Positions 4,416-44,383 of a stretch of DNA of 44,383 nucleotides are shown in pieces. The notes below the pieces were generated by a model. That model saw nothing but the letters and a program-made list of their open reading frames with translations, searched no databases and was not told the origin of the DNA. The translations under genes and the position numbers were made by a program. Within the stretch, counting starts at the first letter, position 1. Each line of letters starts with the position of its first letter. The stretch lies in assembly GCA_900317085.1 (NCBI GenBank), contig ONFJ01000017.1:1-44383 (forward strand), in the 5' to 3' direction. This stretch comes from an uncultured Eubacteriales bacterium (GTDB lineage Bacteria > Bacillota > Clostridia > Oscillospirales > Acutalibacteraceae).

Positions 4416-5498
4416 ATGAAACAGTACAACGTAGGTATCATCGGCGCCACCGGCATGGTCGGTCAGCGCTTCGCCACCCTCCTCTCGGGTCATCCGTGGT
4501 TCAATATCGTTGCGCTCGCGGCCAGCTCCCGTTCTGCCGGCAAGACGTACAAAGACGCCGTCGGCGCCAAATGGAAGCTCCAGACCCCGATGCCGAAAGA
4601 GCTCGAAGACGTCATCATCATGGACGCAGAGAACGACATCGAGAAGATCGGCGAGATGGTCGACTTCGTCTTCTGTGCTGTCAACATGTCCAAGGAAGCC
4701 ACCGCGGCTCTCGAAGAGAAGTACGCGAAGGCTGACATTCCGGTCGTTTCGAACAACAGCGCACATCGCCACACAAAAGACGTCCCCATGGTCGTCCCGG
4801 AACTGAACCCGGAGCACCTCGACATCATCCCCGCTCAGAAGAAGCGTCTCGGCACCACCCGCGGCTTCATCGCCGTCAAGTCCAACTGCTCCCTTCAGAG
4901 CTATGTCCCGCCGCTCTTCCCGCTGCATGAGAAGTATGGCGTCGAAGATGTCCTCGTCTGCACCTACCAGGCCATTTCCGGTGCCGGCAAGACCTTTGAA
5001 GACTGGCCGGAGATCCTCGACAACGTCATCCCCTACATCGGTGGCGAAGAGGAGAAATCCGAGAAAGAGCCTCTGAAGATCTGGGGCAAGGTCGAAGGCG
5101 ATGAGATCGTCCCGGCCACCGAGCCTCACTTCACCGCGCAGTGCCTGCGTGTCCCCGTTTCGGACGGTCACCTCGCCGCGGTCTTCGTACGCTTCAAGAA
5201 CAAGCCCACCAAGGAAGAGATCCTCGACTGCTGGAAGAACTTCTCCGCGAAGCCCCAGGAGCTGAAACTCCCGATGGCACCGGAACACTTCCTCAACTAT
5301 TTCGAAGAGGACGACCAGCCCCAGACCAAGGAGAAGAGAAACCTTGAGAAGGGCATGGCGGTCTCCATGGGCCGTCTCCGTGAAGACACCCAGTATGACT
5401 ACAAATTCGTCTGCGTCTCCCACAACACCCTGCGCGGTGCTGCCGGCGGAGCCGTGGAACTGGCCGAACTGCTTGCCGCAGAAGGCTATTTTGACTAA
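4416..5498 (+). CDS. asd: Aspartate-semialdehyde dehydrogenase
   Basis: 360 residues, the longer archaeal/fungal-like type. It reduces aspartyl phosphate to aspartate semialdehyde with NADPH, feeding lysine/DAP and the threonine-methionine branch. The dinucleotide loop is GIIGATGMVGQRF (residues 7-19), the catalytic Cys is C158 in KSNCSLQ, and the downstream His is in SDGHLAAVFV. An in-frame start at 4299 lies inside the -35 box, so ATG 4416 (MKQYNVGIIG) is chosen; its Shine-Dalgarno (GTGGA) is weak. First gene of asd-dapA-dapB. Confidence 0.97.
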   Translation: MKQYNVGIIGATGMVGQRFATLLSGHPWFNIVALAASSRSAGKTYKDAVGAKWKLQTPMPKELEDVIIMDAENDIEKIGEMVDFVFCAVNMSKEATAALEEKYAKADIPVVSNNSAHRHTKDVPMVVPELNPEHLDIIPAQKKRLGTTRGFIAVKSNCSLQSYVPPLFPLHEKYGVEDVLVCTYQAISGAGKTFEDWPEILDNVIPYIGGEEEKSEKEPLKIWGKVEGDEIVPATEPHFTAQCLRVPVSDGHLAAVFVRFKNKPTKEEILDCWKNFSAKPQELKLPMAPEHFLNYFEEDDQPQTKEKRNLEKGMAVSMGRLREDTQYDYKFVCVSHNTLRGAAGGAVELAELLAAEGYFD

Positions 5499-10680: not shown

Positions 10681-10702
10681 GTAATTTCTGAGTGTGAAAA
10701 GC

Positions 10703-12802
10703 TTATTCAGCAGCCTCTTCAGCAGGAGCTTCCTCTGCGGGAGCTTCCTCTTCAGCAGCTTCTTCTGCGGGAGCCTCTTCGACGACTTCCTCGACCTCTT
10801 CGGCAGCTTCTTCGACAGGAGCTTCCTCTTCTTCGGTCTCAAGGATGTCGGTCAGGTCCTCATCCTCATCGAGGAGAGCACGGATGGAAAGGCTGACGCG
10901 TTTCTTGTCGTAGTCGATGTCAGTGATCTGACATTTGACTTCCTGGCCCTTCTTCAGGACATCGTCCGGTTTCTCGATGCGCTTGTTGGCGATCTGAGAA
11001 ATGTGGATGAGGCCGTCGATGCCGGGGATGATGTTGGCAAACGCACCGAATGCGGTCATACCGACGATGGTGGCGTCGACAACGTCGCCGACTTCATAGG
11101 TCTTGGAAAGAACGACCCAGGGGTTGTCCTCGTCCTTCTTGTAGCCAAGAGAAATACGATCGTTCTCGAGGGACTTGATGTAAACTTCGACCGTGTCGCC
11201 GACGTTCAGAACTTCAGACGGATGCTTGATGCGCTTCCAGGAGAGTTCGGAAATGTGGATCATGCCGTCGATGCCGCCGATGTCGACGAACGCACCATAG
11301 GAAGTGAGGGATTTGACGACGCCGGTGAAGGTCTGACCTTCTTCAGCAGTCTCCCAGAACTTCTCGCGGGCCGCCTTGCGCTCTTCCTTGAGAACGTCTC
11401 TGATGGAACCAACAGCACGTTTTCTCGGCTTGGCAAGCTCGATGATCTTGAAGCGGACGCGGGTGTTGCGAAGGTCTTCCAGGGGCTCGCCTCTGCTGGC
11501 AGTAGCAAGAGAGCCGGGGATGAAGACGCGGGAACCCTTGTCGGTGGTGGCGATGACGCCGCCCTTGTTGATGTCGGTGACAGTACCTTCGATGATGGTA
11601 CCTTCCTCAGCAGCGGTCTCCAGCTCGCTCCAGGCATTGGCGCTGTCGAAACGTTTCTTGGACAGCATGATGGTGCCTTCGGCGTCGTTGGTCTTCATGA
11701 TGACGCAGTTGATGGTGTCGCCCACTTTGACGTCGGTCGCGGGGTCAACAGTCGGGTCATAGCTGTACTCATCGTACTTAATGTAACCGGTCTGTTTTCT
11801 GCCGATGTCGACCTGGATCTCGGTGGCGGTGATGCCAACAACGGTGCCTTCGACGCGGCCGTCGGTAGACATGTTGCTGAGGCTCTCTTCGAGCATCGCC
11901 TCAAAATCTTCGTTTTCTTCGGTCATGGTTTTTACTTCTTCGGACATGGACTCAAGTACCTCCTTTATTGTCGCAGAGGGCGTGGAAGCCCCTGCGGTGA
12001 CACCGATAGTGTCAGCTCCCTCAAGAAACGCCGGGTCTAGCTCGGACGCGTCCTGAATGAGCAAAGTATCACAGTTTTTCCTGCAAACATCGTAGAGTTT
12101 GACAGTGTTGGAACTGTGCCTGCCACCGACAACTATCATTCTGTTTACCTGCTTGGAAAGTACTTCAGCTTCATGTTGGCGTTCTTCGGTAGCTTTACAT
12201 ATTGTACCAAATATAGCGGTATTTGTACACAATAAATTTATTGTCGTTACGCACTTTTCCCATTCTTCGAGACTGTAAGTCGTCTGCGCGATGAGATTGA
12301 CTTTCTTCCCTTCCCATTCCGTTTCGTGGGCGATGTACGTCTCCTTCAGCTCTTCGGCGTCGTGAACGACATACGCCGGGCAGGTTGCAAAGCCCAGCGT
12401 ACCGGTAACTTCCGCATGTCCCACCGTGCCGGCGAGGAGCAGCACATCGGTCTCCGGGTCGAGCTTTTCAACGATTTTGTGGATGCGTTTGACGAAGGGA
12501 CAGGCCACATCGAGGTACGGGATGCCCCGTTCCTCGTAGTACTCATACACGCGTTTCGGGACGCCGTGGGTGCGCAGCACGACCTGAGCGTCGTCCGGGA
12601 CCTTCGTCTCGTCTTCTTCGAAGTGGAGACCCATGCTCTCGAGGCGCTCGTTGACGGCGTTATTGTGGACGACCTGGCCCATCGCGTAGACATTGGGCTG
12701 CGTTTTCAGGTAATCCTCGATCTGATCGATCGCCCGTTCCACACCGAAGCAGAAGCCGGCATGGTCGGCGAGGATCACCTTTACATCTCGTCTTTGTCCC
12801 AT
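10703..12802 (-). CDS. ispH: IspH (HMBPP reductase) – ribosomal protein S1 fusion
   Basis: 699 residues, a fusion known in Clostridia. Residues 1-285 are IspH, which makes IPP and DMAPP in the last step of the MEP pathway: its [4Fe-4S] cysteines are C18 (GFCFGV), C101 (VACPF) and C202 (TICKAT), with THGVP and GHAEVTGT also present. Four S1 RNA-binding domains follow (about 315-383, 402-467, 488-556, 570-643; [17 protein letters not shown] is the clearest). The acidic tail (646-699) has repeated EEAPAEEAA blocks. The ATG used overlaps the plsC gene by 22 nt with AGGAG only 2 nt away; GTG 12778, next to the plsC stop, is a real alternative start. Confidence 0.95.
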
Positions 12803-27073: not shown

Positions 27074-27097
27074 CATCTGGTGGCGTACAAGTTAATT

Positions 27098-27251
27098 GTG
27101 CGGACGACGGGACCTGGTTCGCCGCAAGCGCTTTGCGCTCTGGTGCGGACGACGGGACTTGGTTCGCCGCAAGCGCTTTGCGCTCTGGTGCGGACGACGG
27201 GACTTGGTTCGCCGCAAGCGCTTTGCGCTCTGGTGCGGACGACGGGACTTG
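27098..27251 (-). repeat. Tandem 45-bp repeats carrying tRNA-Leu(CAG) 3' tails
   Basis: Four copies of the tRNA-Leu(CAG) 3' end at a 45-bp period (copies at 27098-27116, 27141-27161, 27186-27206 and 27231-27251). Copies 2-4 keep 21 nt from the T-loop through CCA, read on the minus strand; the first has a changed T-loop base and no intact CCA. The other half of each unit is GTTCGCCGC followed by a small AGCGC-TTT/AAA-GCGCT hairpin. Open frames read across this array (15-residue repeats) are artefacts of the kind produced by antisense tRNA sequence. Confidence 0.9.
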
Positions 27252-27253
27252 AC

Positions 27254-27329
27254 GCAATTTTGCTTTGCAAAATTGCTCCGAGGTGCTGCCGCACCTCACT
27301 CGCCTAAAAACATGCCACCGGCATGTTTT
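27254..27329. repeat. Three-hairpin module downstream of tRNA-Leu(CAG)
   Basis: Successive stems: a 10-bp stem GCAATTTTGC (27254-27276), GAGGTGC-TGCC-GCACCTC (27280-27297), and AAAACATGCC-ACC-GGCATGTTTT (27307-27329). The last two recur with changed but still paired bases beside the other two tRNA genes in the window. Confidence 0.8.
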
Positions 27330-27349
27330 CTTGACGGCTCGCCCCTACC

Positions 27350-27437
27350 GGGTTCAAGTCCCTGTCCGCAAAAAGAAACAGCGAATACGCAAAAGCGTAT
27401 TCGCTGTTTCCTGGTGCGGACGACGGGACTTGAACCC
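27350..27437. repeat. Quasi-palindrome spanning the tRNA-Leu(CAG) 3' end
   Basis: GGGTTCAAGTCCC (27350-27362) is an inverted copy of the T-arm of the adjacent tRNA (27425-27437). TGTCCGCA, then the 16-bp terminator stem, continue the match, so the two arms are about 41-43 nt with a 4-nt centre. The copy has AAA where the tRNA has CCA, which supplies the terminator T run. Confidence 0.9.
27375..27410 (-). terminator. Terminator of tRNA-Leu(CAG)
   Basis: Perfect 16-bp stem (GAAACAGCGAATACGC) with a 4-nt loop, starting one base after CCA, followed by TTTTT on the minus strand. Confidence 0.95.
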
Positions 27438-27498
27438 ACATGAACTTGCATTCACTAGAACCTGAATCTAGCGCGTCTGCCAATTCCGCCACGTCCGC
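27412..27498 (-). tRNA. tRNA-Leu(CAG)
   Basis: 87 nt including encoded CCA. Acceptor stem GCGGACG/CGTCCGC, discriminator A; anticodon stem CTAGA/TCTAG with loop TTCAGGT, anticodon CAG (reads CUG); long class II variable arm; T-arm TGGGTTCAAGTCCCG. Confidence 0.97.
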
Positions 27499-38548: not shown

Positions 38549-38571
38549 AAAGAGAGCTGTCGCTCTCTTTG
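38549..38571 (-). terminator. Terminator after the tRNA-tail copy, ahead of the MFS gene
   Basis: AAAGAGAGC-TGTC-GCTCTCTTT hairpin next to the CCA of the tail copy, followed by TTTTATG on the minus strand, copying the tRNA-CCA-terminator arrangement. Confidence 0.75.
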
Positions 38572-38590
38572 GTGCGAGAGACGGGACTTG
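38570..38590 (-). repeat. Direct copy of the tRNA-Leu(GAG) 3' tail
   Basis: 21 nt identical to the tRNA from the T-loop CAAGT through CCA, about 266 nt beyond the gene. The break point in the T-loop is the same as in the tandem copies beside tRNA-Leu(CAG), and the base string following it (GTTCGC) is also shared. Confidence 0.9.
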
Positions 38591-38707
38591 GTTCGCAGCA
38601 CTGCGCTGCCTGTGGCAGATGAAGCAGGGCTGTCGAACAGGAAGAAACAAGGAGTATCGCGAAGCGCTCCAAGCGAGCGAGACGACTATGTTTCTGACCG
38701 TCCGCGC
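38591..38707. other. Non-coding insert between tail copy and hairpin module
   Basis: About 117 nt rich in GCG/CGC short repeats (GCAGC...GCTGC hairpin at 38596-38609; GCGAAGCGC; AAGCGAGCGAG). Short frames exist on both strands, but none has a ribosome site or recognisable product. No gene is called. Confidence 0.4.
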
Positions 38708-38779
38708 TTTCGCTTCGCGAAACCGCACCGAGCTGCTTCCGCAGCTCCCGTCGCTAAAAACAGTCCACAGGACTGTTTT
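38708..38779. repeat. Hairpin module downstream of tRNA-Leu(GAG)
   Basis: TTTCGC-TTC-GCGAAA (38708-38722), GAGCTGC-TTCC-GCAGCTC (38730-38747) and AAAACAGTCC-ACA-GGACTGTTTT (38757-38779), in the same order and spacing as next to tRNA-Leu(CAG). Confidence 0.8.
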
Positions 38780-38797
38780 CTTGACGCTCCGGCCCAA

Positions 38798-38882
38798 GGG
38801 TTCAAGTCCCGTCCGGACAAAATGAAAAGCCAGACCCATACGGGTCTGGCTTTTCATGGTGCGAGAGACGGGACTTGAACCC
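38798..38882. repeat. Quasi-palindrome spanning the tRNA-Leu(GAG) 3' end
   Basis: GGGTTCAAGTCCCGTC (38798-38813) is the exact inverse of the tRNA T-arm (38867-38882, 16 nt). A 9- and 10-nt internal loop separates it from the 15-bp terminator stem. Confidence 0.9.
38823..38856 (-). terminator. Terminator of tRNA-Leu(GAG)
   Basis: Perfect 15-bp stem (TGAAAAGCCAGACCC) with loop ATAC, directly abutting CCA; TTTTGT follows on the minus strand. Confidence 0.9.
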
Positions 38883-38941
38883 GTACGAGTCGCCCCACAC
38901 GCCCCTCAAACGTGCGCGTCTGCCGATTCCGCCACTCTCGC
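38857..38941 (-). tRNA. tRNA-Leu(GAG)
   Basis: 85 nt with encoded CCA. Acceptor GCGAGAG/CTCTCGC; anticodon stem CACGT/GCGTG with loop TTGAGGG, anticodon GAG; class II variable arm TGGGGCGACTCGT; T-arm ACGGGTTCAAGTCCCGT. Confidence 0.97.
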
Positions 38942-44159: not shown

Positions 44160-44189
44160 ATTGTACACAATGGAAGTACAAGTGGTCAA
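44160..44189 (-). promoter_or_regulatory. Candidate promoter of DUF362
   Basis: TTGACC (44184-44189) and TACAAT (44160-44165) on the minus strand, 18 nt apart. The -35 lies 14 nt from the hairpin module of tRNA-Pro. Confidence 0.6.
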
Positions 44190-44202
44190 GGATAATATGC
44201 CC

Positions 44203-44251
44203 GAGCTGCTGCCGCAGCTCCCGTCGCTAAAAACAGTCCGCAGGACTGTTT
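44203..44251. repeat. Two-hairpin module downstream of tRNA-Pro(GGG)
   Basis: GAGCTGC-TGCC-GCAGCTC (44203-44220) and AAACAGTCC-GCA-GGACTGTTT (44231-44251). The third hairpin and the tail copies seen at the tRNA-Leu loci are missing; the DUF362 promoter stands there instead. Confidence 0.8.
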
Positions 44252-44272
44252 GTTTAACGGCGCGGCTCTGCC

Positions 44273-44359
44273 GAGTTCAAGTCTCGCCTGGAAAGTGAAA
44301 AGAGCATCGGGCAAAAGCCCAATGCTCTTTTCATGGTCCGAGTGGCGAGACTTGAACTC
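44273..44359. repeat. Quasi-palindrome spanning the tRNA-Pro(GGG) 3' end
   Basis: GAGTTCAAGTCTCGCC (44273-44288) is the exact inverse of the tRNA-Pro T-arm and adjoining bases (44344-44359), different from the leucine copies and matching its own neighbour. Confidence 0.9.
44296..44333 (-). terminator. Terminator of tRNA-Pro(GGG)
   Basis: 17-bp stem with one C-A mismatch (TGAAAAGAGCAT then GGGC) and a 4-nt loop, abutting CCA. Confidence 0.85.
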
Positions 44360-44383
44360 ACGGCCTCTTGACCCCCAGTCAAG
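44334..44383 (-). tRNA. tRNA-Pro(GGG), 3' part only
   Basis: The window ends inside the gene. Visible are anticodon stem CTTGA/TCAAG with loop CTGGGGG (anticodon GGG), T-arm GTGAGTTCAAGTCTCGC, 3' acceptor strand CACTCGG and ACCA. Confidence 0.93.

Follow-up and report, generated by a model that had tools for sequence, protein, structure and literature searches.

Target-matched arms around a structured core behind tRNA genes of Clostridia: a candidate family of small insertion elements

What is an inverted copy of a T-arm doing beyond the terminator of the very tRNA gene that it matches? The question is raised by a 44,383-nucleotide stretch of DNA (the window, by which we mean this whole stretch) that forms part of contig C40 in a draft genome of 1.94 Mb and 133 contigs from a group of uncultured Clostridia of the gut; every genome compared with it here is also a draft. 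In the window ARAGORN identifies two minus-strand genes, for tRNA-Leu(CAG) and tRNA-Leu(GAG), and a third, tRNA-Pro(GGG), is truncated at the window edge on the same strand. Contig C77 ends in a whole tRNA-Pro(GGG), which is taken to be identical to the edge-cut gene. A sequence-only reading had described, at these genes, the order T-arm, acceptor, CCA, terminator hairpin, T run and inverted T-arm copy, and both the copy and this order were read at three of three sites on the minus strand, with the CCA region facing the T run at Leu(CAG). The inverted copy is therefore real, but it is the left arm of a larger conserved structured element of about 120 nt. The layout runs from the tRNA 3' end and CCA through the terminator hairpin, T run, left arm and a core of about 95 nt to a right copy (Table 1), and it is in this last part, a direct copy of the 3' end of their own tRNA that is absent from the earlier reading, that intact elements terminate. 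We consider it fairly probable that the inverted copy of the T-arm forms one arm of an insertion element that is small, structured and non-coding and that targets the 3' ends of genes, above all the T-arms of tRNA genes.

The element in the window and in its genome

Table 1. Features of the three elements in the window (all positions refer to the window)
Feature	Position	Strand	Basis
tRNA-Leu(CAG), host gene of element 1	27412-27498	-	ARAGORN; Rfam RF00005
Element 1, terminator hairpin	27375-27410	-	sequence
Element 1, T run	27370-27374	-	sequence
Element 1, left arm, inverted copy of own T-arm and acceptor 3' strand (GGGTTCAAGTCCCTGTCCGC on the plus strand)	27350-27369	-	sequence; own-versus-shuffled test
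Element 1, conserved structured core, hairpins A, B and C	27253-27349	-	alignment A1; covariation; R1 match 27233-27371
Element 1, right copy, direct, tRNA positions 55-76 including CCA	27231-27252	-	sequence; junction table
Tandem 45-bp array of partial tRNA 3'-end copies, includes the right copy	27096-27251	-	repeat families D1, D2, D4
tRNA-Leu(GAG), host gene of element 2	38857-38941	-	ARAGORN; Rfam
tRNA-Leu(GAG) terminator hairpin and T run	38819-38856	-	sequence
Element 2, left arm, inverted copy of own T-arm	38798-38813	-	sequence; own-versus-shuffled test
Element 2, conserved structured core	38703-38797	-	R1 match 38684-38819
Unrelated second repeat (type 2), between core and right copy	38591-38702	-	sequence; recurs at other tRNA loci of the genus
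Element 2, right copy, Leu(GAG) 3' end from position 56, then a second terminator	38570-38590	-	sequence; junction table
tRNA-Pro(GGG), 3' part, cut at the window edge	44334-44383	-	sequence; whole gene on C77
Element 3, left arm, inverted copy of own T-arm	44273-44288	-	sequence
Element 3, truncated core, hairpins A and B only	44201-44272	-	R1 match 44172-44294, 57 bits

No right copy was seen behind the truncated core at the Pro(GGG) locus. Each unit of the tandem 45-bp array consists of a partial tRNA-Leu(CAG) 3' end and a small hairpin; short-spaced copies of the tRNA 3' end are also present at the same tRNA in G007 (L126) and G003 (L107), and these resemble the footprints of repeated insertion. 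The second repeat is about 110-150 nt long (GGTCAGAAACATAGTCGTC...), adjoins the first element, and is found elsewhere at Leu(CAG) in G004 (L098) and G007 (L126), at Ser(CGA) in G003 (L114) and at the second Asn gene of G000 (L043); at the Leu genes its end abuts the tRNA copy directly.

A covariance model built on ten elements from the window's own genome (R1) matches that genome at 12 places with E < 1e-13, ten of them behind complete tRNA genes, one behind the edge-cut Pro gene and one, on C126, near a contig edge and without a tRNA. As the genome has 36 tRNA matches, the element is carried by 11 of the 36, and the earlier statement that every tRNA gene has it is correct for the window (three of three) and does not extend to the genome. 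The same order was also read at Pro(CGG), Arg(CCG), Arg(ACG), Leu(TAA), Leu(CAA), Met, Asn and Ser(CGA) of this genome, in which R1 finds eight further weak matches (E 0.01 to 1). For the T-loop motif GTTCRANTC by itself there is no enrichment in the window: its 7 matches compare with 4.86 expected and are reached by 22 of 100 shuffles. Genome-wide it has 132 occurrences, compared with 30 of the reversed control, in a genome where 36 tRNA genes are found. Unlike the bare motif, the match of the copy to its own gene is beyond chance.

Arms that match the host gene

The match between arm and gene was assessed on a set of 95 different elements whose hairpin has a tRNA 40-130 nt upstream, covering 31 kinds of tRNA and drawn from the window genome, its relatives and, among the matches listed, named genomes; this set pools the genus with more distant genomes, and related sequences within it are not independent. 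The locus-specific match of the left arm, as claimed in the sequence-only reading, was borne out, with a summed score of 2685 against the own tRNA and 1663 against shuffled partners (sd 42, maximum 1813; 10,000 permutations). For the right copy the corresponding values are 2977 and 1282 (sd 43, maximum 1463; 10,000 permutations). Taken singly, 68 of the 95 left arms match their own tRNA better than at least 95% of tRNAs with other anticodons (49 of the 95 beat all of them) and 27 fall below the 95% mark, while 84 of the 95 right copies lie above it.

As a control, 90 tRNA genes of the genus that lack the element and have at least 200 nt of flank were scored. An inverted arm of comparable score was present in one, which is the decayed element L126, and a direct copy outside any other tRNA gene was present in three, L126 among them, with another core in two of the three. 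The idea that such arms are a general property of tRNA terminators was rejected, as the control shows just the one comparable inverted arm. At 20 positions in nine loci the tRNA and the right copy differ, and here the left arm sides with the tRNA at 17, with the right copy at 2 and with neither at 1; the signal that the left arm follows the tRNA is weak, since 2 of the 17 positions lie outside the copy and 5 at a contig edge.

The earlier reading had also suggested that a read-through transcript could form a hairpin with the T-arm, and this agrees with the folds predicted here. In minimum-energy RNA folds of the sequence up to the left arm, with pairing counted from 4 bp upwards, the 3' strand of the T-stem is predicted to pair with the left arm in 36 of 47 loci of the genus, and in 35 of 47 when the whole element is folded; an intact T-stem is retained in 0 and 1 of the 47, respectively, in a prediction that is rough, as a tRNA folded alone retains its T-stem in just 30 of the 47. 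Single-stranded DNA could form the same pairing between T-arm and left arm. One explanation takes the RNA fold as the function of the element: on read-through the inverted arm would act as a trap for the T-arm, leading to the removal or altered processing of tRNA precursors that are unprocessed or misfolded. The trap predicted at most of the 47 loci, the arms that remain matched to the tRNA and the conserved structure of the core are all consistent with this, but the T run precedes the copy, 25 of the 36 tRNA genes in the window's own genome do without an element, as do all of those scored in the regions fetched from G002 (18) and G006 (37), sister species are patchy, a protein gene (rpsI, below) also carries the element, and the direct copy is left unexplained. 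From the position of the T run, the lack of the element at most tRNA genes, the rpsI sites and the direct copy we regard a functional RNA of this kind as very unlikely, and the role in quality control or processing put forward in the sequence-only reading as disfavoured.

Distribution, target sites and junctions

R1 matches at E 0.001 or better occur in 19 of 40 genomes (the own genome and 39 relatives). Within the eight genomes of the genus there are 12 matches in the own genome and 8, 0, 11, 17, 7, 1 and 14 in the others (11 in G003 and 14 in G007), counts that include contig-edge fragments and a few overlapping matches on opposite strands; six of the seven other genomes thus have between 1 and 17. 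The single match in G006 lies away from any called tRNA gene. Beyond the genus the matches are few and weaker, the best being 8e-16 in G031, which has four.

A scan of named genomes for the central hairpin returned at least 118 stretches, from Clostridia bins, Ruminococcus, Oscillospiraceae and a few others such as Bifidobacterium. Among the matches listed, part have the same tRNA architecture with other cores and part are other repeats; a tRNA lies within 500 nt upstream in 64 of 147 listed hairpin matches, and 15 of the 147 are in viral contigs. Among the matches listed, 100 hairpins in named genomes had enough flank for three arm tests, which were passed by 27, 14 and 41, and 43 passed none of them; the tests are insensitive, since some of the 43 are visibly linked to a tRNA gene or to rpsI. 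The hairpin AAAACAGTCC-GGACTGTTTT was rejected as evidence when it stands alone, because it occurs in other repeats without a tRNA. Its exact pattern is present in 21 of 393 genomes of the class, and the 8 of 20 hairpin regions from G370 and G424 that were examined after an orientation filter all lack a tRNA gene and belong to a different repeat. Such other dispersed palindromic repeats with AAAACAGTCC-GGACTGTTTT are seen at L328, L329, L332 and L337 (G370) and at L341-L343 and L347 (G424), and also in phage-like viral contigs (L263-L274), away from tRNA genes. The letters of hairpin A alone occur in 12 viral stretches, within other repeats; those of hairpin B of element 2 have no match in viral contigs, and element 2 as a whole has none in phage or plasmid records.

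Sister species differ in whether the element is present at the same tRNA. Where the flanks are homologous, Thr(CGT) has an element in G005 and none in G000 and G007; at the empty sites CCA is closely followed by a terminator with GGGCACCC, and in G005 the element has another terminator in front of it and the GGGCACCC terminator behind its right copy. Pro(CGG) is likewise empty in G007 and occupied in G003 and G005, with a related terminator behind the right copy in G005, and at Ser(TGA) an element is present in G005 and absent from G004 and G000. Further pairs with homologous flanks are Pro(TGG), occupied in G007 and empty in G000, and Ala(GGC), where G001 has a truncated element, compared with G000. 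The direct copy of the gene end is found in occupied sites and not in empty ones, the truncated Ala element being the exception. In two loci, Pro(CGG) of G004 and Arg(ACG) of G007, it is the first terminator that looks like the ancestral one, which counts against a clear left boundary. Given the fixed start of the copy, the empty sister sites and, in the clearest pairs, the original terminator behind the direct copy, the elements are most likely insertions, and the polarity of change would be gain rather than loss.

Such elements are not restricted to tRNA genes. Among the matches listed in named genomes, 11 hairpins at 10 loci are no more than 400 nt downstream of a gene whose product has the C-terminus RAPQFSKR, as ribosomal protein S9 has, and which we take to be rpsI. 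Behind the core these loci have a direct copy with CAGTTC as its first letters, in several (L149 and L168, for example) part of the gene end can be seen by eye in inverted orientation, and at L166 and L233 the terminator is repeated too. A position behind tRNA and rpsI genes, together with a strongly covarying fold, might suggest a domesticated DNA structure, for example one that prevents conflicts between replication and transcription, or a folded site to which a protein binds, downstream of highly transcribed genes. Species within one genus differ in its presence, though, and we know of no protein bound to such elements; we judge this explanation highly improbable.

The start of the right copy is regular within the genus. 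In 34 of 42 elements the 190 nt that follow the hairpin contain an exact copy of positions 55-66 of the own tRNA, and in 35 of 41 scored elements the copy starts 22 nt before the end of CCA, at tRNA position 55. In the other set (53 elements, 46 scored) the copy starts mainly at 18 nt (12 elements), 14 nt (9) or 22 nt (7), the last group including members of the genus from the named collection. Cores of the 22-nt type end in CG before TCRA in 36 of 41 listed rows, and those of the 14-nt type in TA or CA in 8 of 9. L136/L222, at Arg(CCT) and with a right copy from another tRNA, and the tRNA-less L051 are at contig edges and may be assembly artefacts.

The core itself covaries. In 55 sequences from the genus (alignment A2) 98.0% of the cells in 38 modelled pairs are paired, both sides have changed in 20 of the 38, and the covariation score is 0.307 compared with 0.114 for shuffled and 0.033-0.056 for slid alignments; A2 was fitted to the model, which favours structure, and the unfitted alignment A1 of ten sequences has double changes in 17 of the 38 pairs. 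By its covariation the core is either a folded RNA or a folded strand of DNA.

These data bear on whether the arms could have arisen by template switching during replication, without any dedicated enzyme. A nascent strand would fold back at the terminator palindrome, copy the 3' end of the tRNA in reverse, enter a foreign hairpin core through shared T-loop letters and then turn forward again, giving the direct-inverted-direct order of a tandem inversion duplication. That order is what is read at the intact loci among the matches listed, the first turn sits at the terminator hairpin, and most genomes of the genus have none of the candidate enzyme families; at Arg(ACG) of G006 (L288), moreover, an unrelated core is combined with arms of the same kind. 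Chance switches, on the other hand, should not give a covarying core common to 55 loci, and the 14- and 18-nt junctions lie at tRNA sequence that is not universal, which chance would not lead one to expect. We therefore hold this account of the whole element to be unlikely, while repeated local inverted duplication or template switching, as proposed in the earlier reading, is a possible origin of the arms. That the element is a mere by-product of terminator palindromes, the other suggestion made there, is not supported in view of the covarying core, the direct copy at a fixed position and the empty sister sites.

When cores are compared between loci, descent with the tRNA locus leaves a weak signal and spread within a genome leaves none. 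Cores at the same tRNA but from different genomes have a mean identity of 0.818, and those that share neither have 0.800 (permutation 0.045), with 0.803 for different tRNAs within one genome (permutation 0.257); these values and the tree counts are based on 51 rows, four of the 55 in A2 having been dropped for want of a clear tRNA name. The core tree is poorly resolved (51 rows, 92 columns, 22 of 48 inner branches open), and three small starred branches within it hold 3, 4 and 3 kinds of tRNA, for instance Asn with Ser(CGA) and Glu. An identity of 0.95 is reached between Tyr of G003 and Arg(CCG) of G000. Similar cores at different kinds of tRNA indicate that cores and arms are separable, through movement with new arms or through recombination between loci.

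Some loci are more complex. Tandem units lie behind one tRNA at L257, L258 and L260, and the units of L258 have different terminators. In a search for versions that carry genes, a far copy of the tRNA end was present at five loci, one of which spans genes: the 3.4-kb stretch with a restriction-modification-like gene at Pro(CGG) of G000, which is probably a separate island. At L035 (1911-4763) a 950-aa gene lies between tRNA-Pro(CGG) 3'-end copies, one of them at about 5145-5170, in the manner of a small defence island; its product appears to resemble a restriction-modification protein of type IIG. At tRNA-Lys(TTT) the alleles L086 (G004) and L119 (G007), which share the same flanking gene, have exchanged right copies, and this could reflect ectopic recombination, cassette exchange or assembly error.

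Enzymes, known systems and a possible mechanism

The tandem units lead to a comparison with integrons. If the elements were integrase-driven cassettes, a mobile unit would bring along a tRNA 3' end of its own together with a terminator, an inverted arm and a core, and would replace the matching tRNA end by recombination in the T-loop, with selection removing insertions that do not match. The different terminators of L258, the chimera-like Lys alleles and a left arm that mostly agrees with the copy on the tRNA side all fit such exchange. An integron-type integrase was not seen in the PF00589 search of the eight incomplete drafts of the genus, however, near-identical cores at different kinds of tRNA would need core exchange between units, and the Lys alleles have the other possible origins given above, so that we rate cassettes, too, as a rather unlikely explanation. 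The likeness to cassettes and attC sites, in the available parts of the published accounts, is in arrays of small units, long imperfect palindromes and variable arms with a kept fold. The difference is in the lack of a cassette gene and in the target: attC core sites are RYYYAAC and GTTRRRY, whereas here it is the GTTCRA of the T-arm, with CG joined to TCRA in 36 of the 41 listed genus rows and other junctions in the other types.

Reverse transcriptase (PF00078) is found in 0 of the 8 genomes of the genus, Y1 transposase (PF01797) in one (G007) and Cas1 (PF01867) in one (G006, the genome with a single R1 match). One tyrosine recombinase (PF00589) is common to 7 of the 8 and, judged by eye from its size and sequence, looks like the host Xer protein; further ones occur in four genomes, and in the drafts of G003 and G007 the PF00589 search found none besides the Xer-like protein. 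None of the enzyme families searched explains the distribution of the element. The element contains no integrase gene itself, the distance of at most 190 nt from hairpin to right copy in 34 of 42 elements being too short for a gene.

Phages, ICEs and islands that insert into the T-arm leave the tRNA 3' end duplicated on the far side of the insert, and the 3' end of rpsI is a known target of integrative elements. The elements described here share with them a tRNA 3' end that is directly duplicated around the insert, and the existence of empty sites, and differ in their length of about 120-190 bp, the lack of an integrase gene, the inverted copy of the target and the many kinds of tRNA occupied per genome. 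MITEs and REP-type repeats are small, non-coding, palindromic, dispersed and non-autonomous. A target site duplication is a further likeness to MITEs, in the form of the direct gene-end copy in occupied sites (the truncated Ala element excepted), but there are no shared terminal inverted repeats, the ends instead varying by locus and following the host gene; no parent transposase of the MITE or REP kind was seen, Y1 transposase being present in 1 of 8 genus genomes. Group II introns and retroelements are set apart by the host reverse transcriptase (0 of 8) and the lack of an Rfam match.

Casposons, which are Cas1 transposons, insert at tRNA 3' ends with target duplication, and as far as the accessible portions of their descriptions go they resemble the present elements in both site and duplication; Cas1 is missing from 7 of the 8 genomes, though, and the present elements are far smaller and have an inverted target copy. 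Tandem inversion duplications (DUP-TRP/INV-DUP, ODIRA) have the same direct-inverted-direct order of one segment in those parts of the reports that were available. They form at inverted repeats and are far larger de novo rearrangements without a conserved core, unlike the elements here, which have a conserved core at junctions beyond local repeats.

The element matches no family in Rfam, either at the gathering score (window and 20 loci) or at E up to 1 (6 loci). A known RNA family was thus rejected, tRNA being the sole match above gathering at the elements; T-box, SAM and 5S matches lie elsewhere, and weak matches to miRNA and sRNA families, far under their cut-offs, are regarded as chance. 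The open literature, in the parts available and with subscription papers and preprints outside its scope, yielded no published description. The statement in the sequence-only reading that no class like it has been described therefore stands for Rfam and for this literature, and reaches no further.

On our reading, then, these would be a family of mobile repeats directed at T-arms, with target-derived arms, and they would appear to be largely selfish. The tRNA would keep working because its complete 3' end and terminator stay ahead of the insert. The least certain part is how the insert arrives: this may be by strand exchange or copying on single-stranded DNA in folded form, always at one position in the T-arm and perhaps helped by an enzyme acting in trans, in which case T-arm, terminator and inverted arm would together make up, as a hairpin, the folded target site. 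Arms derived from the target gene would allow one core to fit many tRNAs. A bolder version, to which we give tentative and less than even credence, is a mobile DNA that rewrites its own ends, its conserved core copying the 3' end of the target both directly and inverted, perhaps through recombination or copying on folded single-stranded DNA, and so fitting any tRNA or rpsI. To our knowledge no transposition with target-copying ends has been described, and if true this mode would be new. The 95 elements at 31 kinds of tRNA gene, and further ones at rpsI, with related cores joined to host-matching arms, form a natural set in which it can be tested whether a mobile element takes its end sequences from its target. 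They also bear on the origin of integron cassettes and their palindromic sites, on tRNA 3' ends as hot spots of insertion, and on how tRNA genes retain a terminator after an insertion behind them.

Two further kinds of repeat were seen. Gut-1 (RF01706), a separate repeat, lies directly behind two elements (L262, 4544-4620; L194, 507-578), where it appears as a series of small hairpins with GUGAAAU spacers. In the window, 15-bp periodic repeats at 10702-10828 lie in the 3' part of a 699-aa reading frame (10703-12802, minus strand).
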